A DNA stretch of 38,444 bases from Flavobacteriales bacterium (GTDB taxonomy: Bacteria; Bacteroidota; Bacteroidia; Flavobacteriales_D; Crocinitomicaceae): assembly GCA_009926125.1 (NCBI GenBank), contig RFPM01000007.1:1-38444 (forward strand), in the 5' to 3' direction. Of the stretch, positions 10,464-30,797 are shown one piece after another (positions within the stretch are counted from its first letter, which is position 1; every line of letters begins with the position of its first letter). The notes under the pieces are model-generated. The model was given only the letters and a program-made list of their open reading frames with translations, did not search any database and was not told the origin of the DNA. Made by a program: the position numbers and the translations under genes.

Positions 10464-13400
10464 TTATCCGAATTTTAACTCTTTAATCCAATTTGGAATA
10501 TTTTTTAATTGCTTCATTTCTTTCGCTAGACGCACAACATTCTTAGCCGATTCGATTGATTTCAAGTTCTCTATTCCTCCTTCCAAATTGTCTTTTCTAA
10601 ATTCTGCCGATTCAATATAGGATAAAAGAGCTTCATTCATTAAGCCCAATTTCTCCTGGCTTTCTCCAAGTTTTAAAAATACTTCACCATCTTTTTTTAC
10701 ATTTAGCGCAAGTTTATAATTCTCGATTGCATTTCCAAAGTCATTCAAATAAAAAAAGCAGTTTCCAATTCCATCATAATAAAAAAGGAGGCGTTTAAGT
10801 TCATTATTTCGTTGGTCTATTTCAAGTGTTTCTTCATAAAGAGCAAGAGCATCTTGATGAAAACCATTTGTATATAAACAGGATGCATAGGTATAAATAA
10901 ATTTTACTAATCTAAAATCATACGAGTTAAAAATTTTCCTTGCAATGGATAATGCTTTAAAAAAATAATCTTTTTCCTTTACTGTTTCTTTCAAATTAAA
11001 GTAGGTGCTTCCAATATTATGGCAAATCATTGCTATAAAAAAAGTAAATTCTCCTTGCTCTTTAGAAAAGATGAAATATGCTTTCTCAAAATACTCAAGT
11101 GCTAATTCAAAATCACCTTTTCCTTTATAAATTACTCCAATACCATTCATTACAAATGCCACATCAATAGAATTTTCGCCGAATAATTCTTTATTTAATT
11201 TCAAAGCTTTTTCTTTCCAAATAATAGCTTCATCAAAATCTTTCAAATTACCATATACAACTCCAATATTACTACAAACCTTTGCAACTAAATCTTTGGA
11301 TGTATTTAATTGGCTTACTCTAATTTCATAACATTTTTTATAATAGTGTAGGGCTGATTTATAATTTGATTGTTTAGTCTCAATTCTTGCAATTTCATTT
11401 AATATCTCATGATCATCATGATTCATTATGAAAATTGAATCTATTTCTTTTCTATATTGAATTTCATCGCTTCCGAATAAATCATTTAAAGTTTTCAAAG
11501 CGATAAGAATTTCTTGTTTTGATTTAAGGGTGTTTATTTTTTTTAATTCAAGAAGAATATTCTTTACTTTTTCAAATTCTTGCAACTCATCTAAGGTTGA
11601 AATCAATTTCCATAAAAAATGCCAATCATTGTTTGTTGGTTCTTGCATTAACTTTTGAATGGTAACTTGACTATCATATGTTTTAATGAAAATAAGTACA
11701 GGTTTAAAACATAAATTATAATATTCTTCCCCTAGATCAATTAGTTCTGTTGTTAATGACAAATCTCCGGTAATTGCTCTCTGACTCAAAAACACCTCGA
11801 TGGATGTTCTCTTTAATTTGTTACCTTCTTGTAATATTTCAATGATTTCATTTACTGTTGAAACTTTTTTATTAAACAACAAAAGTTTTCCTAATAAATG
11901 AAATAGTGCTCCTTCAACTGTCATTGAAATGTATACATCCAAATCTTTGATGTAACGACTAATCCAACCTATATTTTTTAATCTAGGGTAAGGTGAATTT
12001 ATTAGATCAATTGTAAAGAAATCTTTAAATTTCTTGTTTTTTAACAAGTCATCAAGCAGTAACTCATTTTTTCCTTGATTCCAAATTTCATCTGTAATGG
12101 TTTCTAAAAACTCTAATTCGGCATCCGAGAAAGTTTCGAGCCAATCCTCCCAAATATTTAGATGTTTGTTCCCTTTTTTAGGTAATGATTTACCATGATA
12201 AGTCTCCAAAAACAGACGTAAAACAAGTGGATTACTCAAATGAGTATACAATGCCCTGTCATAAGTGGAAAGGTCATCAAATGAAAAAAGCGGTTTATAC
12301 TTATTCTTGTCTTTCTGATTGTATCTTTCCCAAGCGCCTTTCATTTCTTTCATGTCAAGGGCTATTAACCAGAAGGAATAATCGCCTAATTCTGTTTCAT
12401 TGTCCTTGTTTTCGCCATAAAGTAAGTTATAGTCATTTTCAGAAACGATATAGCGATTTAATTCGGCTTTTGTATTTGCTCTATTTGTCACAACAAACTT
12501 TATACTTCCTGGAATAAATAGCTTACTGAGATCAATAATTTCCCTCCAAATTTCTTCTGCATTATTTGCTTCATTTAAACCATCAATTAAAATAAAAGTA
12601 GGTTCTGACTGTGTTCCTGCAATAGAATCATAATTTTCTAATCCTTGTTGTACATCGATGTTTAGTAAATAGGCAATTTGCTCTTTCAAGGAGTGTTTTT
12701 CCATTCGTCCTGCTCGAATGAGAAGGCTTGGTAAATCGCGCTCGGCATATTGCTTTTGTATCTCCACAAGCAAGTTAGTTTTACCACTTCCCGCCTCTGC
12801 CACAATAAAAAAGATGTTGGCTCTTGCTCCAATCCATTCGCGCAACTTGATTTCCATTTCTTCCCGGTGTTGGTAAATACCAGGAATGATTTTTTTCTCA
12901 GAAATAAGTGTATTTAACAATAATTTATTTTCCTCTGCAATTCGCTTTAAAAATTCATCTTTTGTAAAAGCTTCTGGAGCGAATGGAGTTTCCTTTTGTT
13001 TATCACGAAGTAATAAATTTAATTTTTCAAGAATTTTACCTGAAGTTTGCTTTTCTGTTCCTTCAGGACTAAAAAACTTGATGGTTTTACCTGTGTAAGA
13101 TTCATAGGTTAATAGTTGCTCTTTGTCCTCCTTTCCTATTGAAACTTCACCAGGAACAACAAAAAATGGCAATATGTCCATGGAATTGCCTTCTGGGTTT
13201 TCAATCCAAACTCGAGAAGATATTTGGTTGCCCTTTTCCACCAAACTGATTTCTGCTGATTTCAATAAATAGTTTTCTCCGTGCTCACATTTAAACATTG
13301 AGTATTCTTCGGGGAATTTCATTTGCGCAAGAAGATCTCTGAAAATTGGAAAATACATTTCCCAATGATAAACAGCTTCACTTTCGTCGAGGGTAAGCCC

Positions 13401-13991
13401 ATGACCAAGAAAACGATTTCTGAAATTAATTAACATTCCAATTGCAGTTGCTTCTTGTTTCTTCAATTGAATGTCACCATTAGCATCAATAATTTCAATC
13501 TCGCCTTTAAAAAGCTTCCTTTTTTTCCCGGACTCGATCAAATCATAATAACTAAGCAAATCTGAGCAGAAAAACGAATGATTGTTTTCTTTCAGATAAG
13601 ATAAAGTTTCTCTAATATACTGGTTCCAAGATCCGAAAGAAGGCTCGGCCAATGCTTGTTGAAACAATGCAACCATTTTTTTATCCTTTAAAGGACTAAT
13701 GAAAAACTCAGATGCTGCAATCAAACCCAAGTACTTAAGAAAATTCAGAAAAGTATCTTTGAGTAAGTTGATTTTTGTCCATGCATGTTTTTCCATTAAA
13801 GTTCGCTTTAAGGGATAAGCAATGACATAAGGTAAATTTGAAATCAATTGTTCGTCCTCTTCCGATAGAAGTGGTTTTTCAATGAGTTCAATAAGATTTT
13901 GTTGACAAACTGGGCAATTCATACTCATAGGAAATGTAGCCTTAGATATGGAAATTGCGCAAGTTGGATTTATGCAGATATATTCACTCAT
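10464..13991 (-). CDS. STAND NTPase: zinc ribbon, HEPN-like RNxxxxH, NACHT, TPR repeats (candidate anti-phage sensor)
   Basis: 1175 residues in a signal-transducing ATPase layout. A zinc ribbon (C6, C11, C26, C29) opens the protein. A helical region (about 60-220) carries RNRFLGH (R191-H197), which fits the RNxxxxH motif of HEPN ribonucleases. The NACHT-type NTPase follows: Walker A AEAGSGKTN near residue 400 and Walker B FILIDGLNEA near 465. A helical linker leads to at least six TPR-like repeats (about 860-1150, for example YKSALHYYKKCYEIR and FELALEYFEKAYFIF). STAND proteins of this kind (Avs, bNACHT) sense phage proteins through the C-terminal repeats and activate an N-terminal effector. 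Here the effector would be the HEPN-like part; this is inference. It follows the DUF2971 gene by 36 bases. Confidence 0.85.
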   Translation of the reverse strand: MSEYICINPTCAISISKATFPMSMNCPVCQQNLIELIEKPLLSEEDEQLISNLPYVIAYPLKRTLMEKHAWTKINLLKDTFLNFLKYLGLIAASEFFISPLKDKKMVALFQQALAEPSFGSWNQYIRETLSYLKENNHSFFCSDLLSYYDLIESGKKRKLFKGEIEIIDANGDIQLKKQEATAIGMLINFRNRFLGHGLTLDESEAVYHWEMYFPIFRDLLAQMKFPEEYSMFKCEHGENYLLKSAEISLVEKGNQISSRVWIENPEGNSMDILPFFVVPGEVSIGKEDKEQLLTYESYTGKTIKFFSPEGTEKQTSGKILEKLNLLLRDKQKETPFAPEAFTKDEFLKRIAEENKLLLNTLISEKKIIPGIYQHREEMEIKLREWIGARANIFFIVAEAGSGKTNLLVEIQKQYAERDLPSLLIRAGRMEKHSLKEQIAYLLNIDVQQGLENYDSIAGTQSEPTFILIDGLNEANNAEEIWREIIDLSKLFIPGSIKFVVTNRANTKAELNRYIVSENDYNLLYGENKDNETELGDYSFWLIALDMKEMKGAWERYNQKDKNKYKPLFSFDDLSTYDRALYTHLSNPLVLRLFLETYHGKSLPKKGNKHLNIWEDWLETFSDAELEFLETITDEIWNQGKNELLLDDLLKNKKFKDFFTIDLINSPYPRLKNIGWISRYIKDLDVYISMTVEGALFHLLGKLLLFNKKVSTVNEIIEILQEGNKLKRTSIEVFLSQRAITGDLSLTTELIDLGEEYYNLCFKPVLIFIKTYDSQVTIQKLMQEPTNNDWHFLWKLISTLDELQEFEKVKNILLELKKINTLKSKQEILIALKTLNDLFGSDEIQYRKEIDSIFIMNHDDHEILNEIARIETKQSNYKSALHYYKKCYEIRVSQLNTSKDLVAKVCSNIGVVYGNLKDFDEAIIWKEKALKLNKELFGENSIDVAFVMNGIGVIYKGKGDFELALEYFEKAYFIFSKEQGEFTFFIAMICHNIGSTYFNLKETVKEKDYFFKALSIARKIFNSYDFRLVKFIYTYASCLYTNGFHQDALALYEETLEIDQRNNELKRLLFYYDGIGNCFFYLNDFGNAIENYKLALNVKKDGEVFLKLGESQEKLGLMNEALLSYIESAEFRKDNLEGGIENLKSIESAKNVVRLAKEMKQLKNIPNWIKELKFG

Positions 13992-14027: not shown

Positions 14028-14765
14028 TTAGTCTAAGATAATTGGACCTCTTTTTATTTCATTATAAAGTGTTGCTTGTGAAAGTTTTATCTGAAACTGA
14101 ATTTTAAAAAACTCTTTAAATAGTTTAGATTGATTTTTTCCTATCCTAGGATCAAGCGAATAGTTTTGGGTGAAGTCTCTGATATCAGCTCGAATACTTA
14201 ATTTTTTTGAAGTTTTTTGTTCTTTAGGTATAATCATGATTCTCAATTCATTTTCATATTCGAAAGCTTTTCGTTTTTGAATCATCAAATCGATTTGGGA
14301 TTTTCCAATAGAAGACTCTTTCAATTCAGAAATCAGTTCTTGTTTATTAGCATCTAGTTCAAAAAACTCCTTTGTGCTCTTGTAATTTACTTTTCCTATG
14401 TAAATTTCAACATTATAAATTTTATCAAGAAATATATTAATAAAATCCTCCGTTTTAAAGGTTAGACGTATTCCATCTTCCAAAGGGGAATAAACTTTCC
14501 AAAAAGCTTCACTGCTGCTGGTTCCAGTAAAACATAAAGCAAATAGTCTATCTCTAACAGGTAATTGTATTTTTTTTCCTGATAAAATGTAATCTCTTTC
14601 GTAAAAAAACTTTTCAAATGGATCATTCCAACTAGCTGGATTCACAAATGTTAACTTATTCGTATTTAACATACTTGTGAAACGATCTATAGTTGTATGA
14701 TGATGAATTCTTTTGTATTCCTTCAAAAGCTCCTCTTTAGTAATGTTTATATAATGTATTGGCAT
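14028..14765 (-). CDS. DUF2971 family protein
   Basis: The family pattern is clear: helix with IHHHTTIDRFTSMLNTNKL, then TFVNPASWNDPFEKFF (about 39-54), CFTGTSSSEAFWKVYSP (about 78-94) with the family's Cys-Phe...Trp...Tyr-Ser, GIRLTF, and late KRKAFEYENELRIM (about 164-177). DUF2971 proteins are about 230-300 aa, of unknown biochemistry, and often found next to defence genes. It overlaps the truncated module gene by 29 bases and lies directly upstream of the STAND NTPase, suggesting joint expression. Confidence 0.8.
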   Translation of the reverse strand: MPIHYINITKEELLKEYKRIHHHTTIDRFTSMLNTNKLTFVNPASWNDPFEKFFYERDYILSGKKIQLPVRDRLFALCFTGTSSSEAFWKVYSPLEDGIRLTFKTEDFINIFLDKIYNVEIYIGKVNYKSTKEFFELDANKQELISELKESSIGKSQIDLMIQKRKAFEYENELRIMIIPKEQKTSKKLSIRADIRDFTQNYSLDPRIGKNQSKLFKEFFKIQFQIKLSQATLYNEIKRGPIILD

Positions 14766-15036
14766 ATTCCTTTATTAATTTTTCAAATCCATTATCAGTT
14801 AAATTACCCAATACTTCAGCAACAAATACCGCGCTTACTTCTTTTTTCAAAAGTGCCCAAATTGCAAAGCGCTGCAATAGTTTTTGGCGTTCCACAACAG
14901 AAATAAGCTCGTCGAAGGCTTCATCATAAAGACCAATCAAACCATCGGGCAATTCTGCGGCGTTTTCTGGATGGATGCTTCCTTTGAGAAGGCCATCGTA
15001 GATGTAGCGGAGATAGGTGGGTTCGAGTTGGGGCAT
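14737..15036 (-). CDS. Stand-alone N-terminal module (probably truncated STAND or defence protein), 99 aa
   Basis: The first 77 residues, from MPQLEPTYLRYIYDGLLKG through the ERQKLLQRFAIWALLKKEVS segment to AEVLG, form a helical module that I recall as the N-terminus of larger Bacteroidota NTPases. Here it ends after a short unrelated tail (NLTDNGFEKLIKEY...) that overlaps the start of the DUF2971 gene. It may be a truncated copy whose body was replaced by the DUF2971 and STAND genes, or an independent adaptor. A 21-residue copy of the same start lies at 9583-9648. Confidence 0.6.
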   Translation of the reverse strand: MPQLEPTYLRYIYDGLLKGSIHPENAAELPDGLIGLYDEAFDELISVVERQKLLQRFAIWALLKKEVSAVFVAEVLGNLTDNGFEKLIKEYANTLYKHY

Positions 15037-16958: not shown

Positions 16959-17513
16959 TTATTTTTCCTGAGGTGTGTAAATAAGCTTCTCCCCTTCTAC
17001 ACTTTTCAAAATCTCTGAAATGCTCATCTTATGAAATTTTTCCTTTAGTAACTGATGTTTTTGCTTAAGGAGTAGCTTAAGTGCTTTCCCTTCGGCAAAA
17101 CGGCGAAGGCTTTCTTCATCTGAGATCTGCAGACCTGGTACTTCGGTTACTTGGCCAGACTCATCTTTTGCAACCATTGTGAAATAACAGGAGTTTGTAT
17201 GTCGTACTATCCCTGTTTTAGGATTTAAAGCTTCTACACGAATACCTACAATCATGGAAGTTTTACCCACGTAATTTACCCTTGCTTTCAAACTAACAAG
17301 ATCTCCAACTTCAATGGGGCTAAGAAACTCTACTCCTTCCACTGAAACGGTAACCACATATCCGCTACAATGCTTGGCTGCTGTTACGTAAGCGACTTTA
17401 TCCATCAAAGACAAAATAATACCACCATGAACTTTCCCTCCAAAATTGGCATAACTTGGAATCATCAGTTCCGTTAGAACTGTTTCAGAGTCAGATTTAT
17501 TTTTAGATAGCAT
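16959..17513 (-). CDS. Acyl-CoA thioesterase, hotdog fold (YciA/ACOT type)
   Basis: Hydrolyses acyl-CoA esters in the cytoplasm. The hotdog signature is clear: NFGGKVHGGIILSLMDKVAY (about 23-42) with the conserved N/G..HGG and the acidic residue in the long helix (Asp38), followed by strands VVTVSVEGVEFLSPIEVGD and a VGKTSMIVGIRVEA strand. The C-terminal 50 residues form a charged helical extension (RRFAEGKALKLLLKQKH) longer than in YciA. It is the last gene of the envelope operon, one base after the DUF350-like gene, but its function is not obviously tied to it. Confidence 0.85.
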   Translation of the reverse strand: MLSKNKSDSETVLTELMIPSYANFGGKVHGGIILSLMDKVAYVTAAKHCSGYVVTVSVEGVEFLSPIEVGDLVSLKARVNYVGKTSMIVGIRVEALNPKTGIVRHTNSCYFTMVAKDESGQVTEVPGLQISDEESLRRFAEGKALKLLLKQKHQLLKEKFHKMSISEILKSVEGEKLIYTPQEK

Positions 17514-17514
17514 C

Positions 17515-18024
17515 TTAACGAATTTGTAACACCTCTGGATAAGGAATTAAAGTTTCACACATTTGTCCGCAGTAATTGTCGATAATCAAGGACAGACCAA
17601 TTATTAATGCAACGATAATTAAGGAAGCGTTGATTTTATTGTTTTTCATCTCCTCAATTTCATTGATTTTGGTGAGCTGGAAGATGGTAGCTAAGGCCGC
17701 TGCTATTACAACAAGTGTGCAAACGATACCAATTACAGAAAAGAGTCCCACATATGCTAAAGAAGTAAGAACCTGAGAAATATTAAAGCTTCCCTGAGGA
17801 TTTAGAATACGAATAGCATTAATTGCAGGATCAATAATAGTAGATAATATCAGCGCACCAGCAATAATGATTCCCATTTGAAAAACAGTAAAAGAAGTAT
17901 TGTCCTTGTCTTTCAAGCCAAAATACTTAGACATAACAAAATTAACTGCTCTGTAAATGATAAATAATGAAATAATCCCGATAACAAAAGCAACGAGTAA
18001 TTGAATAATAATGATTGCGTTCAT
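17515..18024 (-). CDS. DUF350-like membrane protein
   Basis: Four to five membrane segments (about 5-27, 47-68, 84-112, 133-152). The start resembles DUF350/UPF0719 (YjfL-like) proteins: an N-terminal TM ending in YRAVNFVMSKYFG, then TSFTVFQMGIIIAGALILSTIIDPAINAI, where the second TM with its G/A-rich stretch and IxP is typical. Family members are about 130-150 aa, so this one is slightly long because of an added C-terminal TM and a Cys-containing tail. DUF350 genes often accompany membrane-stress genes (PspA, DUF4178). The gene lies 11 bases after the transglutaminase gene and one base before the thioesterase. Confidence 0.6.
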   Translation of the reverse strand: MNAIIIIQLLVAFVIGIISLFIIYRAVNFVMSKYFGLKDKDNTSFTVFQMGIIIAGALILSTIIDPAINAIRILNPQGSFNISQVLTSLAYVGLFSVIGIVCTLVVIAAALATIFQLTKINEIEEMKNNKINASLIIVALIIGLSLIIDNYCGQMCETLIPYPEVLQIR

Positions 18025-18035
18025 AGTTTTAAAGT

Positions 18036-19706
18036 TTAGTATTTATTATAAAAAAGAGTTATGTCCCAATTATCAGTATTGGTATGTTCTGGGGCAATCA
18101 TACCAATTTTAAAGCCTTTAGCGGTTAATTCAACGGCATAATGCTTCACGCCATTAATTTGCTTGTATGTTCCTGTTCCAATGGGTAAACCCACACCTAA
18201 AATACTATGGCCATAGGCTTCGCTAACCCAAACTGAACAAGAAATACCCATTTTTTTAAGAATTGAATACGCCAATAAACTGCGTGTATCACAATCACCT
18301 TTTAAATTATGAATAAACTCATACGGGGATTGCACACCAGCAGGAATATCTGGTAAACATGGTTTATTTTCACGGTGGTATTGTGCTGTAAAACCTCCTT
18401 GCTTACAGGATTCTTGACAACTCAAATCATGTACAAGATAATAGGGAATTTCTTGAATAAAAGTAGTTACCATTTCAGCCGTTCGAATAGGGCTCAAATT
18501 TAACTTAGCTGCATTTGTAATGAATATTTCTGTCAACGAATCAATATGGTAATTGTCCATCTTGTTCATTTGACCGTACACTTCTGTAAAAAATTGAATA
18601 CTGTTATTTGTAGTTTCATTGGATACTATATTTTGATGTCTTTGTTGACTCTCATAAAATATAGTGTTGCTAGTATTGTATCTTGCCCAATAATCAGCAT
18701 TGTAAAAATCCCTCCAATGAATTTCTTTTTCTGTAGTGAAATCAGTAGTTCCATCCTTATTTTTTTTGGCTTTTGGTGGGCTAATTTTAATTGTTCCCTT
18801 TCGATTGTCTTGAGGAATAACTGTTTTATAGTTATTTGATAAAAAATAGAGCAGTAAAAACCCTCCAACAATAAATACAAATAGAGAAAATAAAATTAGA
18901 AGGCATGATTTTTTAAAAAACCTAAATAACATCGTTGAAAGCCCTATTAAAAAAATAGGTAAAACCAATAAAGGAAAAACCTTCCAGGCGATAAATAAAG
19001 CTGCAATCCAAATGAGTAAGTTCATTATGGTCGATCTAGATTTAGAAGGCGCTGCAACCGTATTTTGTCCAATATCAATCACTGGATCACTAGCAGTTGT
19101 TGTTGAACTTATATCTTCAGGCAATATATTTAAACCATCCCCTACCGTTTTAATTTCATTAATTACTGGAGCAGTAGTTTCAGGAACAATGATATTATTT
19201 TCTGGAATTACTTTAATTGGAGGTTTCTTTATTTGGAAATAAATTTCTGCAGATAAATGAACTGAAGGATCAGCCGGACTTCTTTTGTCACTAATTTTGA
19301 AATCTGAAATGATGACTTCGTATAAGGTACCGTTGAAAAATTCAGAATCACCTCTTGGTATAAATATCTCCGGACGTTTAGGCCATCGAATAAAGTCAAA
19401 ATGAATTGCAACCCAAGGAAACTTTTTGCTAAAACTAATTGGCGATTTAAGCTCAAATTGACGAGAAAAAAACCAATTTTTTCGTCCTTTAAGTACTTTT
19501 TTATACCAAAAATCACCAACTTTTAATTCCTCTGAATTGTATTGATCTATGACTTTTACATCATCAATGTGTATGTATTTCCATGAAAACTCAGAAAAAT
19601 TTATTTTACCAATAGTAAGTGATTTCCTACCAGGCTCAGAATATCCTAAGAGCTTACCTTTACAATAAATCGTATCCGATAAAATATTGGTTTTACTGCT
19701 CATCAA
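18036..19706 (-). CDS. Membrane-anchored transglutaminase-like protein, 556 aa
   Basis: The N-terminal 165 residues form a beta-rich cytoplasmic domain containing WYKKVLKGRKNWFFSRQFEL and FDFIRWPKRPEIFIPRGD, of unknown family. A Pro/Thr-rich linker and two membrane segments (about 227-258 and 270-290) lead to a periplasmic part. The C-terminal transglutaminase/cysteine-protease-like domain shows GDCDTRSLL (Cys472), AYGHSILGVG (His500) and HYAVELT (His522, Glu526), which would supply the Cys-His-acid triad. Substrates could be envelope proteins or peptidoglycan-linked peptides; this is inferred. The gene overlaps the OmpA-like gene by four bases. Confidence 0.75.
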   Translation of the reverse strand: MMSSKTNILSDTIYCKGKLLGYSEPGRKSLTIGKINFSEFSWKYIHIDDVKVIDQYNSEELKVGDFWYKKVLKGRKNWFFSRQFELKSPISFSKKFPWVAIHFDFIRWPKRPEIFIPRGDSEFFNGTLYEVIISDFKISDKRSPADPSVHLSAEIYFQIKKPPIKVIPENNIIVPETTAPVINEIKTVGDGLNILPEDISSTTTASDPVIDIGQNTVAAPSKSRSTIMNLLIWIAALFIAWKVFPLLVLPIFLIGLSTMLFRFFKKSCLLILFSLFVFIVGGFLLLYFLSNNYKTVIPQDNRKGTIKISPPKAKKNKDGTTDFTTEKEIHWRDFYNADYWARYNTSNTIFYESQQRHQNIVSNETTNNSIQFFTEVYGQMNKMDNYHIDSLTEIFITNAAKLNLSPIRTAEMVTTFIQEIPYYLVHDLSCQESCKQGGFTAQYHRENKPCLPDIPAGVQSPYEFIHNLKGDCDTRSLLAYSILKKMGISCSVWVSEAYGHSILGVGLPIGTGTYKQINGVKHYAVELTAKGFKIGMIAPEHTNTDNWDITLFYNKY

Positions 19707-20950
19707 CGTTCCTTTTTAGTTCTTGTGGTTTTTGTTGAATTATTCTGAGATAATTTCACTTCAACCCTTCTATTCATTGCGCGACCTTCAGCAGTTTCGT
19801 TCTCTGTTCTTGGTTCAGATTCACCCTTTCCAGTGGCTTTAATACGTGATTCTTGAACTCCTAAACTCACTAAATATCTTTTTACTTCTTCTGCCCTTGA
19901 TTGAGATAATAACCTATTTGCTGTAGCATCACCATCGCTATCGGTATGACCAATAATTTCTCCACTAATTTCTTCATTCTCTAATAAATAATCTGCTAAT
20001 GAATTTAAATCACTCAATGAGCTTGAGAGGAGTTTCGATTTATTCTTTTCAAATTGCACATTGGGGAGACTCAACATTTTTACTGTAGTATTGGTAGTTT
20101 CATCAATATAAGTAAGCGTATCTGGCTTTTCTTTATTTACATAAATGGTATCGTGAATAATTGTTTCTGAATTTCCTGTTGAATTTTTAGGATCGGGAGA
20201 AAATAAGCTTTTTAAAAAGGAAAATAAAAGAAGTAAGGATAGTAATAATGCTAAAAAACCACATCCAAAACGAGAACAACCAGGACCAGAGCAACCACTT
20301 GGCAACATAGATGGCATACATCCATTTGGCTCTTGTCCAATTAAACTCGATCCAAAAGTTTTACCAAATAAGCCATTTAACCAATTCTTCAATCGTAAAT
20401 TAAACCCATAAATGGCTTGTGTAATTTTACCAAAAAAACCAAAGCATCCCGAAGGCATAGATCCACTTTGTGATGGTGGACCATTTACATCAAGTAATTC
20501 TTCAGTAATGAAATAAGCATTTCCCTCAATCTTTCCATGAGGCATTACTTGACTATTGGAAAGAAAGCTATCGTAATGTTTATCTTTCGACTCCTTAAAG
20601 TCGTATTCATGCCAGGAGCTTAATTCATTCGAAAGTTCTGCATTATCAGGATTTTTTTTATTCAATAGTAGCGTTATTGAAGTAGCAATTCTTCTAACAC
20701 CCTTTTTCTTATCAACTCCAGGATAACATTCAATATCAAAACGGCCATTTTGATAAAGATGAGGAGTATTGGATAATAATGCAGAGCTTGGATAATCAGT
20801 TTGCTGAACTTCAATAAAATTGAAGCAATAAAATCGGGGTTCTAAAATAATTTTAGATTGTGCATCATTTGCCGATCCTATTTTCTCTTTTGAATCAGTC
20901 GAAAATTGGGCTTTTAAATAACCCTTGTAATATTTGGTTATTTTGCTCAA
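19703..20950 (-). CDS. TM protein with periplasmic OmpA-like peptidoglycan-binding domain, 415 aa
   Basis: An N-terminal soluble domain of about 160 residues (unknown, likely cytoplasmic) is followed by a Gly/Cys/Pro-rich region (about 165-228), one membrane segment (about 228-250) and a C-terminal OmpA/MotB-type domain (about 290-400). The latter has HTDSDGDATANRLLSQSRAE, with the peptidoglycan-binding Asp337 and Arg352, and ends GRAMNRRVEVKL. The order cytoplasm-TM-OmpA resembles MotB, TolR-like and ZorB-type proteins rather than outer-membrane porins, so it probably anchors an inner-membrane complex to the wall. It overlaps both neighbours by four bases. Confidence 0.85.
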   Translation of the reverse strand: MSKITKYYKGYLKAQFSTDSKEKIGSANDAQSKIILEPRFYCFNFIEVQQTDYPSSALLSNTPHLYQNGRFDIECYPGVDKKKGVRRIATSITLLLNKKNPDNAELSNELSSWHEYDFKESKDKHYDSFLSNSQVMPHGKIEGNAYFITEELLDVNGPPSQSGSMPSGCFGFFGKITQAIYGFNLRLKNWLNGLFGKTFGSSLIGQEPNGCMPSMLPSGCSGPGCSRFGCGFLALLLSLLLLFSFLKSLFSPDPKNSTGNSETIIHDTIYVNKEKPDTLTYIDETTNTTVKMLSLPNVQFEKNKSKLLSSSLSDLNSLADYLLENEEISGEIIGHTDSDGDATANRLLSQSRAEEVKRYLVSLGVQESRIKATGKGESEPRTENETAEGRAMNRRVEVKLSQNNSTKTTRTKKER

Positions 20951-22083
20951 TTTGTTTTTAGTTGATTGATAAATTCAAGCTCCGATAAACACTTACGTAT
21001 TTGTTTTATTTTTTTGGTGTTGTATGGTGGATCTTCATATTTTGAATTGAGAACAACTTTTGATTTCGAGCTATTCAATGATGACAAAGAATCTTCCGCC
21101 CAGGTTTTTGATTTTTGATATTGCCCATGTATTCTTTCATGGTAGTAATCATTAGAAAGTTTTGCATAATTAAAGGCAAGATTATTCTTCAACCTTACTA
21201 ATAGAATTTGAGGAAAAAACACAAGGGTAAAAATAAGTACTGAGATGAACAGAAAGCCATTGAAATGTGTACAATTTCTGAATATATAAATTGGGAAATA
21301 AGATGCATTCAAAGATCTTTTATAAAGGGATAGTTGCTGTGAAATTCCATTATAAAACTCCTCTTTAATCTCTTGCAATTCTTGCTTTAGTTTAGCTATT
21401 TCAATTACTTGATTTTTATAACTAATGCTATTCATTTGAGTAAATTCAGAAATTCTTTTCAATTTGATACTTGCAGTATTAATCAATTCTTGCTGACGAC
21501 TAACTTTAAGTTGAAAGTCTTTGTAAATAATTTTATGATTTTCTTGATACAACTCAGTTCTTTTTTGCTCCAATAAAGAATTGACCGATGATTTATTTAT
21601 TAAAGCAGTTAAAGGAAAAATTAATATTAAAGAGAAAACTGAGGAGAAGAATGTCCGTAACATAAAATTAAACCCCGGAACTTGGCCAGAATTAAATATT
21701 TTACTAAATTCAAACTTATTTAGAAAGGTTGAGAATTTAGATGCTGGGATAGTAGTTACAGGAGTTACAATAGGTGAAACAATTGCCACAGTATCACTAA
21801 TTGGTTCTTTTTCTTCAAGCACCTTAGAAACAGGTCTTTTTATAATTAATAATGAAAACCGAATAACGGAATTGATCACAAAAACAAGAAATATTCCTAT
21901 AATAAAAGAAAGAAAATATGATCCTGTAATTAGAAAAGCTATAAAAAAACTAGAAAAAATTGAAAGTAAGAAAAACCCCAAAAAGCATATAGTAACAAGC
22001 GAATACAAAGATCTTTCACGAGCTGAAAGTGAGGAGAAAATATCACCCTCTAAACCTAATATTTCAATTGTTAATCGCTTCAA
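20947..22083 (-). CDS. Four-TM coiled-coil membrane protein (distant DUF4407-like), 378 aa
   Basis: Two N-terminal TM segments (about 28-52 and 54-80), a third at about 140-162, then a long coiled coil (about 170-245, with repeated Lys/Gln/Glu heptads) and a fourth TM (about 262-290), followed by a charged C-terminal tail. This is the layout of the DUF4407 protein encoded upstream but with little visible identity, so it may be a diverged paralogue that pairs with it. It lacks the N-terminal FLWWCAGAD signature. The stop overlaps the start of the OmpA gene (ATGA). Confidence 0.65.
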   Translation of the reverse strand: MKRLTIEILGLEGDIFSSLSARERSLYSLVTICFLGFFLLSIFSSFFIAFLITGSYFLSFIIGIFLVFVINSVIRFSLLIIKRPVSKVLEEKEPISDTVAIVSPIVTPVTTIPASKFSTFLNKFEFSKIFNSGQVPGFNFMLRTFFSSVFSLILIFPLTALINKSSVNSLLEQKRTELYQENHKIIYKDFQLKVSRQQELINTASIKLKRISEFTQMNSISYKNQVIEIAKLKQELQEIKEEFYNGISQQLSLYKRSLNASYFPIYIFRNCTHFNGFLFISVLIFTLVFFPQILLVRLKNNLAFNYAKLSNDYYHERIHGQYQKSKTWAEDSLSSLNSSKSKVVLNSKYEDPPYNTKKIKQIRKCLSELEFINQLKTN

Positions 22084-22094
22084 AGTCTAAAAGA

Positions 22095-23025
22095 TTAAGC
22101 TGGATTATTAGTCTCACTGTCCTTTCCTTCAGTATAGTAAGCTGAAGGATTATCTTTTACATCTTTCAACGTTTTTGTTGACCACTGATCAATTACTGAT
22201 TCGTTGATTTGTTTTTGTTTCTCAATCTTTTTCAGTTTTTCTTCTCCCCATTTCAATACAAAGAAATACACATAAAATCACCCAAGGAATTATTCCACCA
22301 ATTTCGTGACTTATTTGAATACGCTTTAAGAGGCCGTCATAACCATGCGCCTTTTTTTCATTGTCTTTATATGATTTTCTTAAATCATCAGACTTCTTAT
22401 TGATTTGGTCATCATTAAAATTTATTAACTCTTTTTCATACCCCAATAATTTAGTCTCATATTGTTGCTTATCAGTCTCAAGTTTTGCTAAATTTTGCTT
22501 AAAGACTACATCAGTTGCATCATTCAATTTTTGAGTGTATTCTTTTTGGTATTTACTCAGCTCGGAGTTGATTTCTGATTCCAAAATCTTGATCTCCAAT
22601 GGAGCAGATATAGCAAATCCTAATATTAGTGCAATAATAATTCGGGGTAATGCTTGTCCAACTTCTCTCCATGTTATTTTATCAGTTCCATCACCTTTAC
22701 CAGTTGAAGATACAATAAATCGATCCAAATTAAAAATGATTAAACCCCAAACAATTCCAAAAATAAATGCTCCGAATTTAGTCCCTAAACTTACTACCAG
22801 ATCATCAATAGCATCTCCTTTTGGACCAAATATTGTATAAAAAGCAAAGCCTCCAGAAAAGGCTGCCAATAAGCCCGTACAAAGCACTATTCCACCTATA
22901 CCGGCATATTTCACTCGATCTTGCATGGGAGACAACTTTAGGAAATGTTCATCCGCTCCTGCGCACCACCATAAAAATCTAGATGTCCAACTTGGTTCTT
23001 TTGTTAAATAATCAATTTGACTCAT
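22095..23025 (-). pseudogene. DUF4407 membrane protein, frameshifted near its C-terminus
   Basis: DUF4407 is clear: FLWWCAGADEHFL (about 18-30), AGIGGIVLCTGLLA, the IVWGLIIFNLDRFIVSS segment and LPRIIIALILGFAISAPLEI, then a coiled coil (about 150-225) and a last TM. In the main frame the protein ends early at residue 267 after IEMGRRKTEKD (stop at 22222). A second frame opens at about 22259 and reads VLKWGEEKLKKIEKQ and on for 54 residues to a stop at 22095, ending 11 bases before the next gene as expected in this packed operon. An indel near 22255-22275 therefore interrupts the gene, or the assembly has an error. The truncated protein keeps all TM segments and may still work. Confidence 0.75.
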
Positions 23026-23512
23026 AATTCATTAATTTAAAATTTGTATAACTTAATTCAGACTTATTGTTCAACTCAATTTCCAAAATATTCAAGGTAG
23101 GATCATGCTGTTTTTTGTTGAATTTGATGGGATTCAAAACTACTCTATTTTCATTTATTTTAACCACAGGTGCTTTTTTGAAAATACTTTCTATTATGGT
23201 CAGTGAGGGTTGAAATGTATTCAAAAAATTTATCTTTAAGGCAACACGATGAATTTTAAAACCATAACCAAAAGTAATGAATGTAATCTCGGGATGATAG
23301 ACATTCGTTATTGATTGAAAAGCTCCTTTTGGAGACATGAAAGAAATTTTATTCCAAAATTTATTAAAATGAAAACGTGTGTCTGGGTATTTCCCATTAT
23401 TGTAATAAACTAAAATAAAAAGACATTTAGTAAAATGAAAATTCAGCACAAATTCTTGCCCTTGAATAAGGTAAGTGGTTCGGTCTCCATCAAAAGAAAG
23501 ATGTTTTAACAT
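23012..23512 (-). CDS. Hypothetical beta-rich protein, first gene of the envelope operon, 166 aa
   Basis: I do not recognise a family. The sequence alternates hydrophobic and polar residues in many strands (for example FVLNFHFTKCLFILVYYN and EITFITFGYGFKIHRVALKI) with no signal peptide or TM segment, so a cytoplasmic beta-sandwich is likely. It overlaps the DUF4407 gene by 14 bases. A TATATTTG box stands 15 bases before its ATG, marking it as the head of the operon. Confidence 0.6.
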   Translation of the reverse strand: MLKHLSFDGDRTTYLIQGQEFVLNFHFTKCLFILVYYNNGKYPDTRFHFNKFWNKISFMSPKGAFQSITNVYHPEITFITFGYGFKIHRVALKINFLNTFQPSLTIIESIFKKAPVVKINENRVVLNPIKFNKKQHDPTLNILEIELNNKSELSYTNFKLMNYESN

Positions 23513-24022: not shown

Positions 24023-27000
24023 ATGGCGGTACATAACGAAGATTCTAGAGTAAAAATCCCAACTATACTGCACCTTGTGCGCTTGGGTTTTGAGTACCTC
24101 TCGTTGAAAGGACAATCATGGGATGAAACTACCAATATTTTTACGGAAATTTTTTATAAAAGCATCAAACGTCTCAATCCTGATTTTACAGATGGCGATT
24201 TGAAGCGCTTATACGATGAAGTTTCACTTAGTTTGGAAAATGAAGATTTAGGTAAAGTATTTTACGAAAAATTAACTGCCACATCTGGCAAACGAATTAT
24301 TGACTTTGAAAATTTCGATAACAATACATTCAATGTTGTTACTGAACTTACCTATAAGAAAGATGATGATGAGTTTCGTCCCGATATTATTATTTTAATC
24401 AATGGAATGCCATTGGCTTTTATTGAAGTAAAGAAACCTAATAACCAAGATGGTATTTTAGCTGAACATAAACGCATACAAACTCGATTTGAGAATAAGA
24501 AATTTAGAAAGTTTGTAAACCTTACACAGTTAATGGTTTTCTCCAATAACATGGAGTATGACAATAATTCACCTTTACCTATTGAAGGTGCATTTTATGC
24601 CACCGCTTCCTATCAAAAACCAGGCTTTAACTATTTTAGGGAAGAAGAAAAATTTGATCTGGCTAAATTATTATCTGACATACCCGACGATATTGAATCC
24701 GCTATTTTAAAAGATACCAATTTAGTAGGAATTAAACATTCCGCTGAATTTATTACCAATAAAAACCCCGATACACCCACTAATAGAATTTGTACTTCAT
24801 TGTTTCAACGTGAACGTTTATCTTTTTTGTTGCAATATGGATTAGCTTATGTGAAAGAAAAAAATGGACTTCAAAAGCACATCATGCGTTATCCGCAAAT
24901 GTTTGCGACCAAAGCTATTGAAAAAAATTTAAATGAAGGAATTAAAAAAGGAATTATTTGGCATACGCAAGGAAGTGGAAAAACTGCCTTAGCATACTAC
25001 AGCGTAAAGTACCTCACTGATTATTATCAATCTAAAGGGGTTGTTCCTAAATTTTATTTTATTGTTGACCGTATTGACCTGTTAATCCAAGCTGGGAGGG
25101 AATTTAAAAGTAGAGGTTTAGTTGTGCATAACATAAATTCAAGGGAAGAATTTTCTCGTGATATTAAATCAACTAGTGTTATACACAATCACTCAGGAAA
25201 GCCTGAAATTACTGTTGTAAACATTCAAAAATTTGAGGATGATTCTGACGTCATTAGAAATAATGATTACAACTTAAATATCCAACGTGTTTACTTTCTG
25301 GATGAAGTTCACAGAAGTTACAATCCCAAGGGTAGCTTTTTGGCTAACTTGCATGAATCAGATACCAATGCAATAAAAATCGGATTAACTGGTACTCCAC
25401 TGCTTGGAACTGATTTTAATTCGAAATCATTATTTGGCGGCTACATTCACAAATACTACTACAATTCTTCTATTGCGGATGGCTATACTTTACGCTTGAT
25501 AAGAGAAGAAATTGAAACCAAATACAAGCTAAGTTTACAACAAGCATTGGAAGATATAAAACTACTGAAAGGTGATGCAAAAAAAAAGATGGTATATGCA
25601 CATCCTAAATTTGTTGAACCAATGCTTGATTACATCGTGAAAGATTTTGAAAATGCACGAATTACCATGATTGATAATTCAATTGGCGGCATGGTGGTTT
25701 GCGATTCATCAGAACAAGCAAAAATGATGTTTGAGATCTTCGAATCGAACTATGCAATATCCCAAGAGGAAAGCCTTTTAATGGCTGCTGAAACATCAAG
25801 TAGCTATGGTGATAAAAAGAAAATTGAAAGCAAAGTAAAATCCGCAGCTCTTATTCTGCATGACATCGGAACCAAAGATGAACGCAAAGAAAAGGTAGAA
25901 GATTTTAAAGAGGGTAAAATAGATTTTTTATTCGTTTTCAATATGCTCTTAACGGGTTTTGATGCCCCTCGATTAAAGAAACTATACATTGGCCGTGTAA
26001 TTAAAGCCCATAACCTACTACAGACTTTAACACGAGTAAATAGAACATACAAAGACTTTAGATACGGATACGTTGTTGATTTTGCTGATATTCAAAAAGA
26101 ATTTGATAAAACGAACCGTGCTTATTTTGATGAACTTCAATCTGAACTTGGGGATGAAATGCAGCATTACTCCAACCTTTTTAAAAGTGCTGAAGAAATC
26201 ACTGCGGAGATTCAACAAATAAAAGATGTATTGTTTAAATATGATACAAAAAATGCTGAGGTCTTTTCGCAACAAATAACTCAAATAAGTGACCGTAAGC
26301 AAATGTTGGATATTGTGACGGTGTTAAACAACTCCCGAGATTTATATAATATCATTCGTTTATCGGGTAATTATGAATTGCTGGATCAATTAGACTTTCA
26401 TAAACTTACCCAATTGTCACGTGAAGCCAATAACCGCTTAACACTTATCAATACTAAAGAAGCATTAGAAAACAATGTAGATACCAGTAACCTTTTAAAC
26501 ATCGCATTAGAAGATGTGATATTTGCCTTCGTGAAAGTGAAAGAAGAGGAAATGGTATTGGCTGATCAGCTGAAAGATATTTTGCAAAAAACTCGTGAAT
26601 CGTTAGGTGGTAATTTTGACCCGAAAGACCCGATCTTTGTTTCGCTGAAAGAAGAGCTGGAACGCTTGTTTAAAAAGAAAAACTTAAACGAAGTAACCAA
26701 GGAAGAGATGGAGGCCAACATAAGAGAGCTGGAAACCATTTACAATGCTTCTAAGGAATTGGAACGTACCAACCAACTACTTAAAGCCAAATATGATAAC
26801 GATGCAAAATATGCTCGTTTACATAAACGATTAATGGAGAAAGACCCATTGACTGATAGCGAGAGCAAATTGTTTGAGGCATTACAAAGTTTGAAAAGAG
26901 AGGTTGATGCTCAAGTATTACAAAACTCCAAAATGATGGAGAATGAGAGTTATGTTGAGAGAATGATGGTGAAAATGGTCATCGAACAATTAAAGAATAA

Positions 27001-27094
27001 ACATCATTTACCATTAAATGCTGAACAAGCTAAAGTAATAAATGGCCTAATGGTGAAAGAATACATGAATGAATTTCATGGCAGAGTGGCTTAG
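24023..27094 (+). CDS. hsdR: Type I restriction enzyme, R (endonuclease and translocase) subunit
   Basis: The N-terminal PD-(D/E)xK nuclease has RPDIIILING...FIEVKKP with Asp121, Glu135 and Lys137. The SF2 translocase has Walker A WHTQGSGKTAL (Lys320), DEVH box FLDEVHRSY (427-430), LTGTPLLG, GFDAPRLKKLYI and motif VI LLQTLTRVNRTY. The C-terminal part (about 700-1023) is helical and mediates assembly with HsdM. The length of 1023 aa is normal. It cuts DNA away from the recognition site when unmodified sites are met. First gene of an R-rhuM-M-yhcG-dinD-S series on the plus strand; the possible -7 box TATCTTTA lies about 35 bases upstream. Confidence 0.95.
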   Translation: MAVHNEDSRVKIPTILHLVRLGFEYLSLKGQSWDETTNIFTEIFYKSIKRLNPDFTDGDLKRLYDEVSLSLENEDLGKVFYEKLTATSGKRIIDFENFDNNTFNVVTELTYKKDDDEFRPDIIILINGMPLAFIEVKKPNNQDGILAEHKRIQTRFENKKFRKFVNLTQLMVFSNNMEYDNNSPLPIEGAFYATASYQKPGFNYFREEEKFDLAKLLSDIPDDIESAILKDTNLVGIKHSAEFITNKNPDTPTNRICTSLFQRERLSFLLQYGLAYVKEKNGLQKHIMRYPQMFATKAIEKNLNEGIKKGIIWHTQGSGKTALAYYSVKYLTDYYQSKGVVPKFYFIVDRIDLLIQAGREFKSRGLVVHNINSREEFSRDIKSTSVIHNHSGKPEITVVNIQKFEDDSDVIRNNDYNLNIQRVYFLDEVHRSYNPKGSFLANLHESDTNAIKIGLTGTPLLGTDFNSKSLFGGYIHKYYYNSSIADGYTLRLIREEIETKYKLSLQQALEDIKLLKGDAKKKMVYAHPKFVEPMLDYIVKDFENARITMIDNSIGGMVVCDSSEQAKMMFEIFESNYAISQEESLLMAAETSSSYGDKKKIESKVKSAALILHDIGTKDERKEKVEDFKEGKIDFLFVFNMLLTGFDAPRLKKLYIGRVIKAHNLLQTLTRVNRTYKDFRYGYVVDFADIQKEFDKTNRAYFDELQSELGDEMQHYSNLFKSAEEITAEIQQIKDVLFKYDTKNAEVFSQQITQISDRKQMLDIVTVLNNSRDLYNIIRLSGNYELLDQLDFHKLTQLSREANNRLTLINTKEALENNVDTSNLLNIALEDVIFAFVKVKEEEMVLADQLKDILQKTRESLGGNFDPKDPIFVSLKEELERLFKKKNLNEVTKEEMEANIRELETIYNASKELERTNQLLKAKYDNDAKYARLHKRLMEKDPLTDSESKLFEALQSLKREVDAQVLQNSKMMENESYVERMMVKMVIEQLKNKHHLPLNAEQAKVINGLMVKEYMNEFHGRVA

Positions 27095-27143
27095 AATACT
27101 AAGAAAATGATATTGTAAAAAATTGTCGTAGTTATTTAAGAAT

Positions 27144-28142
27144 ATGAATACTGGAGAAATAATAATTTATCAAAATACGGAAGGCAGCATCAAAATAGAT
27201 GTTAGGCTAGAAGAGGAAACTGTATGGCTGACACAAGAACAAATGGCCACACTATTTGGCAAAGGCAGAAGTACTGTGGCAGAACATATAGCAAACGCAT
27301 TCGAAGAAGGGGAATTAGAACAAAAAGCAACTTGTCGGAAATTCCGACAAGTTCGAATGGAAGGAAAAAGAGAAGTAGAAAGAGATATTGAACACTATAA
27401 TCTCGACGTAATTATTTCTGTTGGCTATAGAGTAAAGTCACCACAAGGTACTCAGTTTCGCATTTGGGCTACCCAACGACTAAAAGAATACATCATTAAG
27501 GGGTTTGCTTTAAATGATGATCGTTTTAAATCGGGTAATTCAATGAACTACTTCAATGAATTACAGGAACGTATTCGGGAAATACGGCTTTCTGAAAAGT
27601 TCTTTTATCAAAAAATAAAAGACATTTACACCACCAGTATTGATTATGATCCAAAAGCCGAAAAAACAATTGAGTTTTTTAAGATGGTACAAAATAAATT
27701 ATTGTGGGCTATTAGTGAACAAACAGCAGCCGAATTAGTGTACCGTAGAGCGGATGCTAATTTGCCTCTACTAGGAATGCAATCCTATGATAAGAAAAAT
27801 GCTATTTCGATCAAGAAAGCAGATGTAAGCATTGCCAAAAATTACTTGAATGAGGATGAAATAAAGCTGCTGGGTTTACTGGTAGAGCAATATTTGGCAT
27901 TTGCAGAAACCATGGCTCAACAGCGCACCCCCATGTATATGGCAGACTGGGCGCAACGTTTGGATAGTATTTTACAACTCAATGGAAGGGATTTACTCAC
28001 CCACGCTGGAAAAATTACTCACGAAAAAGCATTAGAGAAATCAACAATAGAATTTGAAAAATATAAGGAGGTTCAAAAAGCAATTGAAAAATCAGAAAGC
28101 CTAAAAGAACTCGAAAACGATCTTAAAAAATTGAAAAAATAA
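27144..28142 (+). CDS. rhuM: RhuM family protein
   Basis: The RhuM pattern is clear: EIIIYQNTEGSIKIDVRLEE, then TVWLTQEQMATLFGKGRSTV (a helix-turn-helix-like part, about 27-46), CRKFRQVR, YNLDVIISVGYRVKS and GTQFRIWATQRLKEYI. A C-terminal helical region with a Fic-like stretch (NYLNEDEIKLLGLLVEQYL, about 235-253) follows. Members are found beside type I and type III restriction genes and in pathogenicity islands, with unknown biochemistry. It ends exactly one base before hsdM, so it is part of the restriction operon. The sequence encoding ATCRKFRQV is an 11-bp perfect inverted repeat. Confidence 0.85.
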   Translation: MNTGEIIIYQNTEGSIKIDVRLEEETVWLTQEQMATLFGKGRSTVAEHIANAFEEGELEQKATCRKFRQVRMEGKREVERDIEHYNLDVIISVGYRVKSPQGTQFRIWATQRLKEYIIKGFALNDDRFKSGNSMNYFNELQERIREIRLSEKFFYQKIKDIYTTSIDYDPKAEKTIEFFKMVQNKLLWAISEQTAAELVYRRADANLPLLGMQSYDKKNAISIKKADVSIAKNYLNEDEIKLLGLLVEQYLAFAETMAQQRTPMYMADWAQRLDSILQLNGRDLLTHAGKITHEKALEKSTIEFEKYKEVQKAIEKSESLKELENDLKKLKK

Positions 28143-29768: not shown

Positions 29769-30777
29769 AGAAATAGAGCAATACAATCATCACAAGTTGT
29801 TCGATGAGCTTTCTGCTTTAATTGAACAAGGCAAACAAAAAATTGCTTTCGCGGCAAACAGTACTTTAACACTTTTGTTTTGGCATCTCGGAAATCGAAT
29901 TAATGAAGAGGTGCTGCATAATGAACGTGCTAAATATGGCAAACGAATTATAGAAATTATTTCGGTAGAGTTAGAAAACAAATACGGTAGAAATTTCAAT
30001 GAAAAAAACATCAGAAGGATGGTGCGATTTTCACAAGAATTTTCAGATTTCAACATTCTGCCGACACTGTCGGCAAAATTGAGTTGGTCCCATTTTATTG
30101 AGCTATTTCCTTTAAAATCAACAGAAGCCAAGTTGTATTATGCCCAAAAAGCGGCTGAGGAAGTTTGGGGTATACGAGAACTACGCAATCAGATTGCTAG
30201 AAAATCATTTGAACGAAAAGAGATTGCAGAGATTCAATCATTTAATTTGCCAGAGGAATTGAAAGACACCTTTAAAGACCCCTACATTTTAGATTTTCTC
30301 AACCTCAAAAATACCTATTTAGAGCAAGATTTAGAACGCGCCATTTTACACGAATTGGAAGCCTTTATTTTAGAGTTAGGTAAAGGCTTTGCTTTTATGG
30401 AACGCCAAAAACGGATGATAATTGATGGGGATGATTTTTATTTAGACCTATTGTTTTATAACCGAAAACTAAAACGCTTGGTAGCTATTGAACTAAAATT
30501 GGGCAAATTTGAAGCAGCACATAAAGGACAAATGGAATTGTATTTAAAATGGCTGAGCAAATACGAAAAAGCCGAAGGCGAAAATGAACCCATTGGTTTG
30601 ATACTTTGTGCCGAAAGCAATAAAGAACAAATAGAATTATTAGAAATACAGAAAGACGGCATCATGGTAGCTGAATATTGGACAGAAATGCCAAGCAAAC
30701 AAGCATTGCAGCAGAAGCTCCATCAGTTATTGATAGAAGCCAAAGAGCGCATTGCTCGGAATACTTTAAACGCATAA
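29761..30777 (+). CDS. PDDEXK nuclease family protein (DUF1016/YhcG-like)
   Basis: The N-terminal DUF1016 domain (about 1-165) contains ANSTLTLLFWHLGNRI, YGKRII and LSAKLSWSHFIELFPL. The C-terminal PD-(D/E)xK domain has DDFYLDLLFYN and LVAIELKLGKFEAAHKGQM, with the Asp and ExK nuclease residues at about 228-248, and YLKWLSKYE typical of the family. Such genes are frequent passengers in type I restriction loci. Nuclease activity is expected from the intact motif. The start overlaps the hsdM stop by eight bases, imitating the hsdM-hsdS junction. Confidence 0.9.
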   Translation: MSKEIEQYNHHKLFDELSALIEQGKQKIAFAANSTLTLLFWHLGNRINEEVLHNERAKYGKRIIEIISVELENKYGRNFNEKNIRRMVRFSQEFSDFNILPTLSAKLSWSHFIELFPLKSTEAKLYYAQKAAEEVWGIRELRNQIARKSFERKEIAEIQSFNLPEELKDTFKDPYILDFLNLKNTYLEQDLERAILHELEAFILELGKGFAFMERQKRMIIDGDDFYLDLLFYNRKLKRLVAIELKLGKFEAAHKGQMELYLKWLSKYEKAEGENEPIGLILCAESNKEQIELLEIQKDGIMVAEYWTEMPSKQALQQKLHQLLIEAKERIARNTLNA

Positions 30778-30797
30778 TATGAACAAGATGAAAATAG

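Follow-up and report, generated by a model that had tools for sequence, protein, structure and literature searches.

A set of seven genes for a putative cell-envelope system, built around membrane proteins of the DUF4407 family and a protein with a predicted transglutaminase-fold (TG) enzyme domain, lies in a Flavobacteriales bacterium (assembly GCA_009926125.1, contig RFPM01000007.1) within a stretch of 38,444 nucleotides that was analysed as a whole and is called the window below. The seven open reading frames (ORFs) span positions 23512 to 16959, all on the minus strand and all co-directional, as a first-pass annotation made from the letters of the window had proposed and as their coordinates bear out. 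With TM standing for transmembrane helix and aa for amino acids, they are, in order of reading:

23012..23512, minus strand: g1, small soluble protein, 166 aa, first gene; beta-rich by eye
22222..23025, minus strand: g2, DUF4407 membrane protein, 267 aa, damaged (PF14362, 9.3e-43)
20947..22083, minus strand: g3, second four-TM coiled-coil protein, 378 aa; by sequence a diverged DUF4407 paralogue
19703..20950, minus strand: g4, N-terminal domain, Cys-rich juxtamembrane stretch, one TM and OmpA wall-binding domain, 415 aa (PF00691, 6.5e-20)
18036..19706, minus strand: g5, N-terminal beta domain, three TM and predicted TG enzyme, 556 aa
17515..18024, minus strand: g6, DUF350 membrane protein, 169 aa (PF03994, 1.5e-7)
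16959..17513, minus strand: g7, acyl-CoA thioesterase of the hotdog fold family, 4HBT (PF03061, 7.3e-19); optional passenger

The distances from g1 to g7 are -14, +138, -4, -4, +11 and +1 bases: the close packing announced earlier (overlaps of 4 to 14 bases, gaps of 1 to 11) holds at five of the six junctions and fails between g2 and g3. The Pfam matches of g2, g4, g6 and g7 lie over the Pfam cut-off, and the domain list of the first-pass annotation was right overall, with one weak case, g5, where Transglut_core reaches an E-value of only 0.13 in the window protein. Scans of the window for Rfam families and tRNAs gave no matches. The ratio dN/dS is 0.03–0.27 for all genes compared, the remnant of g2 included (against the related loci L045 and L046), and lowest for the DUF350 gene g6 (0.034 against L046); because of these values, and because the gene order is kept elsewhere, the seven-gene set is more than a product of chance.

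Conservation across Bacteroidota

That these genes belong to a real multi-gene system is close to certain. They recur in order in other genomes, and five of their families are co-inherited. Among 120 relatives, a search with g5 gave matches in 15 genomes, its own included, and these display two arrangements. The first, type A, has the order g1-DUF4407-g3-OmpA-TG-DUF350 and is found in genomes G047, G044, G005, G019, G021, G040 and G009; contig ends truncate it in G047 and G021, and in G040 and G009 an unmatched ORF stands at the place of g1. The second, type B, begins with an extra TG gene followed by TM-beta, DUF4407, beta-TM-OmpA, beta-TM-x, four-TM, TG and DUF350 genes, and is found in G044, G052, G004, G005, G072, G037 and G024, so that G044 and G005 carry both types.

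A broader view comes from the genome_contigs scan, of which the best 80 of 185 relatives were kept. By title these are nearly all Bacteroidota (Flavobacterium, Leeuwenhoekiella, Pontibacter and Runella, for example), while L101 and L119 carry other names and may be misbinned. Upstream DNA of at least 5 kb is available for the TG gene at 57 of these 80 loci, 32 of which have a long TG protein (at least 480 aa) and 25 a short one. A DUF4407-family gene lies upstream of the long form at all 32 loci (26 of 26 once the six contigs that went into model building, L045, L046, L049, L051, L087 and L088, are set aside), two such genes being detected at 30 of them, and an OmpA gene at 25; DUF4407 is present at 2 of the 25 short-TG loci. 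DUF350 directly follows the TG gene on its 3' side at 70 of the best 80 loci. The ten without such a call comprise three at a contig end (L045, L047, L080), one with an overlapping DUF350 ORF outside the distance limit (L086), two where an ORF takes its place (L103, 148 aa; L106, 169 aa) and four where none was detected (L090, L091, L092, L094). At the 28 loci that have all five families, the evolutionary distances are correlated between families, with r ranging from 0.64 to 0.92 and none of 999 permutations as high.

Local adjacency by chance is thus rejected, by order and co-occurrence in relatives and by the correlated distances. The first-pass annotation, which saw here a wall-anchored inner-membrane system, held that scattered genes in other genomes would reduce the arrangement to chance; the order is kept in other Bacteroidota, which supports the proposal as far as a conserved system is concerned. 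The system is nevertheless rare: in a sample of the phylum the TG profile matches 11 of 395 genomes (own included), or 10 of 170 genera, and DUF4407 adjoins the TG gene in four of these, namely the window, G019, G185 and G370. Two pattern scans of viral contigs yielded no relative, and plasmids none for g5, which leads us to reject a phage-borne system.

The DUF4407 pair and the first gene

Two four-TM coiled-coil proteins had been described in the window, a statement that stands with two corrections: g2 is damaged, and the 'coiled-coil protein' g3 is related to it. Against PF14362 g2 scores 147 bits, the gathering score being 31.3, yet it is only 267 aa long, as compared with 428 aa for the allele of a close relative, L045 (record CAMCYF010000026.1; the closest relative genome found is G047). 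Aligned base by base to L045, it lacks 183 and 173 bases, between flanking blocks that are 95–97% identical, and it has a short diverged patch as well. The second loss, of 173 bases, shifts the reading frame and the ORF ends early; these losses account for the g2/g3 gap of 138 bases, where L045 has 11. Since the window comes from a draft genome in many pieces (157 contigs, completeness 81%), the losses may reflect either true decay or faulty assembly.

For the intact DUF4407 protein of L046, AlphaFold gave a model with a mean predicted local distance difference test (pLDDT) of 74 and a predicted template-modelling score (pTM) of 0.50. Helices 34–66, 80–107, 119–147 and 307–328 are read as TM, and between the third and the fourth stand helices 149–220 and 228–288, of 72 and 61 residues. 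From helix length, this predicted hairpin would be about 100 Å long, and it is probably periplasmic, given the TM count, the charge and an N-terminus taken as inside. Compared with the PDB, the model has nothing below E 0.001, and sequence matches to PDB entries are weak and mostly coiled coils; in a viral fold library the one match, at 8.2e-4, has a TM-score of 0.22–0.24. In the DUF4407 alignment the loop between TM2 and TM3 (residues 101–128 of L046) has invariant residues D101, I104, T108–G113, E121, P127 and R128, for which no function was recognised. Another type of DUF4407 operon may be seen at L152 (2851–7301), where a PLD-like gene (by eye) precedes two others, one TM-beta and one for a DUF4407 protein of 499 aa.

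The g3 protein itself has no Pfam match. Its family aligns with the DUF4407 alignment at 98.4% hhalign probability, over TM1–TM3 and the start of the coil, and a relative of g3 (L023, 6002–7045) matches PF14362 at 2.5e-9 with 37.3 bits, over the cut-off; for these two reasons g3 is classed as a diverged DUF4407 paralogue. The first gene, g1, has no Pfam match over cut-off and no detected relatedness to g4. By hidden Markov model (HMM), 23 of 40 intact DUF4407 genes have an ORF of its family next to them, while some co-directional ORF of 90–270 aa adjoins all 40, at least two of these picks being doubtful (L057, L101). Six of the 40 loci are contigs that went into model building, and the seeds of the g1 model included two ORFs picked by position (L023, L024).

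The OmpA protein, the putative TG enzyme and DUF350

In g4 a stretch of about 220 residues precedes the TM at residues ~223–253. Its OmpA domain keeps D337 and R352 invariant in an alignment of 34 rows, and OmpA-domain residues of this kind bind peptidoglycan. In 27 of 28 relatives, at least three cysteines fall within the 60 residues N-terminal of the TM. Gly-Cys motifs follow one another directly before the TM (residues ~170–230), in relatives too; metal binding or acylation would be guesses. The N-terminal domain of g4 is common to g5 (hhalign 92.8%), and from the order of the TM helices both copies appear to be cytosolic.

The case for a TG domain in g5 rests on its predicted fold and on conserved residues. 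In 36 aligned rows C472, H500 and E526 are invariant, and E526 may be the third catalytic residue. The AlphaFold model of g5 (pLDDT 81.5) places three TM helices within residues 222–291, ahead of the TG domain, and by VIA the fold scores Z 10.0 to 3kd4 (a Parabacteroides putative protease, over 139 residues), 8.8 to TglA and 8.6–8.7 to LapG (131–133 residues). By eye, the short TG relatives L026 and L027 start with a single N-terminal TM or in the manner of a lipoprotein; this, together with the three TM helices of g5, is why the TG domain is placed in the periplasm, where it is probably the output of the system. It is the sole recognised enzyme of the putative complex, if the optional thioesterase is left aside.

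That thioesterase, g7, had been counted as a member of the operon, a view that we abandon, as it occurs apart from the operon and does not follow DUF350 in G047. Relatives of g7 at E ≤ 1e-30 are present in 19 of 60 genomes (own included), several of them in unrelated surroundings and not beside the operon. In G047, whose g5 is 96% identical to that of the window and whose operon probably continues onto a second contig, DUF350 stands at a contig end and is followed by a 101-aa ORF as in the window, without g7; of the ~590 bases between the two, only 20 align to the g7 region.

Neighbours and genomic context

One flank of the operon is a type I restriction cluster (24023–32991), with HsdR at 24023, RhuM at 27144, HsdM at 28143, a YhcG-type nuclease at 29761 and HsdS at 31759. 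On the other flank are an AAA/DUF4143 ATPase (PADLOC PDC-S01), a PDC-S31 candidate and an Avs2-like STAND-TPR protein. Two genes on that side matter for what follows:

10464..13991, minus strand: Avs2-like STAND NTPase with TPR repeats and, by eye, a HEPN-like N-terminus; neighbour outside the operon
14737..15036, minus strand: neighbour, short relative of the 'EAD-like' N-terminal domain of large repeat proteins found by the operon in relatives

The first matches PADLOC Avs2 at 3.2e-12 (residues 380–486, in the Avs2 NTPase region) and TPR_12 at 9.9e-30, with NACHT at 0.0017, below cut-off. 'EAD-like' is our own label for an N-terminus of ~140 residues common to large proteins with variable C-termini; such proteins, or STAND proteins, occupy the 3' side of the operon in relatives. 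The domain has 17 matches in 9 of the 120 relatives. For eleven of them, which are spread over 6 genomes and include some short remnants, an operon of type A or B lies no more than 7.5 kb away, and another, in G118, belongs to a gene with a TG-DUF350 pair at a distance of 5.2 kb. As the two matches in G065 sit on a contig of 4.2 kb and are unplaceable, 12 of the 15 placeable matches are by the operon or the pair. In G118 the region (L164, G118:C27, 836–18242) combines the TG-DUF350 pair, the large EAD-like protein and, by eye, an integrase-like gene, and resembles a mobile island. At L021 (12621–18008), L023 (11954–19499) and L162 (5900–15047), large proteins that agree at the N-terminus and diverge at the C-terminus stand in tandem arrays. 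Among full copies of G019, G040 and G044 this N-terminus is 83–94% alike over ~140 residues, and the arrays bring to mind a cassette system that would supply recognition or effector modules.

The STAND/HEPN-like family counts 11 genes in 10 of 120 genomes (E ≤ 1e-10), five of them beside the operon (in the window, twice in G005, in G001 and in G047). The Flavobacterium versions L096, L100 and L106 have, by eye, similar genes downstream, and that of L096 has an HSDR_N domain. In PADLOC scans, 103 genes flanking the core match 20 profiles, mostly once each, while 87 control genes match 4; the comparison is weak, because the taxa differ and genes were left out. The core-flank genes scanned were 103 of 119 (set aside: eight thioesterase copies, a small ORF of L049, two genes of the second system of L052, one small minus-strand ORF of L067 and four genes of L100), and the controls 87 of 116 (without L060, L063, L066, L068, L074 and L078). 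Neighbour families appear at 18 of 45 core loci as against 1 of 35 short-TG loci, a count biased by queries that were taken from core loci or the window. The first-pass annotation had offered a membrane-stress or an anti-phage device; genomic context leans to defence, favoured by the patchy distribution of the operon, by the presence of types A and B together in G044 and G005, by the adjoining Avs2-like STAND or related repeat proteins and by the type I restriction genes. Elsewhere in the window (3991–4992), a protein matches the membrane region of neurotransmitter-gated channels at 1.9e-7, over cut-off, and is a candidate prokaryotic pentameric channel.

A putative signalling machine across the inner membrane

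At roughly even odds (a probability of about 0.5), the operon encodes a single complex of the inner membrane that relays a cytosolic signal to the periplasm; that it has an accessory immune role is less certain, and we would put it just short of an even chance. The topology of the g1–g6 machine, its assembly as a complex, its enzyme activity and the direction of its signal are what we infer from the features described above. The two DUF4407-family proteins would form a hetero-oligomeric membrane body, their long helical hairpins reaching some 100 Å into the periplasm, and the OmpA-tailed g4 would anchor the whole to peptidoglycan. Input might come from inside the cell, via the cytosolic N-terminal domains of g4 and g5 and the soluble g1, or else be mechanical, through the wall anchor. 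The TG protein g5 and the DUF350 protein g6 would make up the output pair; the periplasmic Cys-His-Glu enzyme would be set free, much as LapD frees LapG, and could then cleave or cross-link a protein of the envelope. Biologically, this may be an accessory immune device that acts on the envelope under attack, phage being the most likely attacker, in islands with Avs2-like STAND proteins. A bolder version would make it a new class of bacterial immune machine and an inside-out counterpart of protease-pore cell death: cytosolic proteins of the STAND/NLR type, with variable repeats, would signal infection to the wall-anchored DUF4407 complex, and this would turn the tethered periplasmic TG-like protease on the cell's own envelope. 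It strikes us as unlikely.

The best analogue is the LapD/LapG (BTLCP) pair, which would share with the operon a TG-fold cysteine enzyme, presumably periplasmic, coupled to inner-membrane proteins. According to passages of one account, LapG is a periplasmic cysteine protease gated by the inner-membrane receptor LapD on a cytosolic signal (PMC3032545), and in another the TG homologue HvyA, also periplasmic, restricts capsulation and through the capsule alters phage sensitivity (PMC4241560). The differences are considerable: g5 is tethered by three TM helices of its own whereas LapG-type enzymes are soluble periplasmic proteins, its third conserved residue is Glu so that the Cys-His-Asp triad is absent, there is no Pfam BTLCP match, no cyclic di-GMP receptor was recognised, and the membrane body is here DUF4407. 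Conflict systems offer a second likeness. Among the effectors of vWA-MoxR iSTAND and related systems, passages of PMC7159879 name TM-OmpA domains and, in rare cases, TG-like peptidase domains, and passages there and in PMC8195603 place TM-OmpA and TG-like effector domains in STAND-type or related conflict systems; yet no vWA or MoxR match is present in the seven proteins, and the main text of PMC7159879 contains neither 'DUF4407' nor 'DUF350', as those of the DefensePredictor paper and PMC8195603 do not contain 'DUF4407'. As for Avs2 (AVAST), the matching STAND protein adjoins the operon without being a member of it, and its relatives also occur without the operon. None of these, whether LapD/LapG, HvyA or STAND-type and related conflict systems, is the present system.

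A fair number of observations weigh against the machine that we propose, or against its immune role. The Z-scores of 8.6–10 are only slightly above the level of unrelated folds, the best Foldseek match of g5 is at E 0.17 (PNGase), the E-value of the TG profile for LapG is no better than 0.26, and the third invariant residue is E526, not the Asp of LapG and HvyA. OmpA was not detected at 7 of the 32 long-TG loci. In the phylum sample only 4 of the 11 TG genomes have an adjoining DUF4407 gene; two have DUF350 only (G257, G411), and our family models find neither at the TG gene in G345, G196, G198, G423 and G409. Conversely, DUF4407 is often found apart from the system (120 of 395 genomes), and in the 8 kb covered at 20 further DUF4407 loci there is no TG, OmpA or DUF350 match, loci of the same family there having some neighbours in common. 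Together with the short TG-DUF350 pair, a conserved locus elsewhere, these counts favour a general envelope role. On the side of context, PADLOC matches in flanking genes are sporadic, six of the 11 STAND genes have no operon in the available stretch (G065, G014, G072, G038, G004 and G052, some contigs being short), and three EAD-like matches in G007 stand without the operon, in an array adjoining a 113-aa ORF.

The last cases bring in the strongest alternative, a serious contender at somewhat less than an even chance and one compatible with the other readings: that two separate things lie here, a STAND immune island and an unrelated membrane operon, in a hotspot also used by the thioesterase and the ~114-aa ORF. 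The STAND gene indeed adjoins the thioesterase in G072 and an ORF of ~114 aa in G038, and for this reason part of the linkage between STAND genes and the operon is put down to a common hotspot; the G007 array beside its 113-aa ORF agrees with this. The 12 of 15 placeable EAD-like matches found by the operon or the TG-DUF350 pair argue the other way.

Somewhat unlikely, though worth keeping in mind, is a device for envelope homeostasis or stress, similar in role to the phage-shock-protein (PSP) response, in which anchor and hairpins would sense strain, the TG enzyme would trim an envelope protein and phage would be irrelevant. In passages of PMC11237479, DUF350 (YjfL) occurs in PspA operons, and g6, a DUF350 member of a membrane operon, fits that partnership. 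PspA itself has no match shown for the seven proteins in Pfam or NCBIfam (for g4, among the best 25 of 40 NCBIfam matches), and the main text of that paper contains neither 'transglutaminase' nor 'DUF4407'. The frequency of DUF4407 outside the system and the scans of viral contigs that yield no relative are consistent with this device, and so are the short TG-DUF350 pairs, which have a LuxE-family gene directly upstream at 14 of 25 loci (L107, L118 and L119 among them; PF04443 at 8.7e-15 in L118) and further neighbours that are similar by eye. Against it, the full operon is patchy and two types coexist in one genome, unlike a housekeeping stress system, and immune-type genes are among its neighbours.

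Control of surface proteins or of the capsule, in the manner of LapD/LapG or HvyA, is a still weaker candidate and in our view improbable: the TG enzyme would cleave an adhesin or a capsule-assembly protein, any effect on phage being indirect. It draws on the fold, closest to 3kd4, TglA and LapG, and on the gating of LapG and the capsulation effect of HvyA in the passages cited above; no adhesin, c-di-GMP or capsule gene was recognised in the seven genes, with no genome search for a substrate made. Finally, a Zorya-like ion-driven motor, suggested by multi-TM long-helix proteins next to a TM protein whose OmpA domain binds peptidoglycan and by ZorB profiles that match g4 (best 1.1e-10), is highly improbable, since those matches begin at residue 277 or later (residues 277–413, the OmpA part, beyond the long N-terminal stretch and the TM), the seven proteins have no ZorA profile match at E ≤ 0.1, no MotA match and, scanned with three neighbours, no match to ZorC/ZorD, ZorE or a Zorya helicase or nuclease, OmpA is missing from part of the long-TG loci, the DUF4407 model has no close PDB match, and the long helices sit in DUF4407-family proteins with a hairpin that is probably periplasmic. 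The first-pass annotation was hence right that MotA and a helicase are absent from the seven, while the close likeness to Zorya is not supported and g4, with its large stretch before the TM, does not look MotB-like.

Significance

It had been noted from the start that the operon did not look like a described system, and indeed no description was found in the literature searched (most subscription papers and all bioRxiv preprints lying outside it), where passages that mention DUF4407 have it as table entries only. Its novelty would lie in gene composition, for which that literature gave no described counterpart. The operon provides a first setting for DUF4407 and for the TG-DUF350 pair. If the proposed machine is real, it would link a signal from the cytosol or the wall, by way of an inner-membrane complex, to a tethered cysteine enzyme in the periplasm, and LapD/LapG would be the model for such signalling across the envelope; and if its immune role is real as well, STAND-type proteins would be tied to an output that acts on the envelope.

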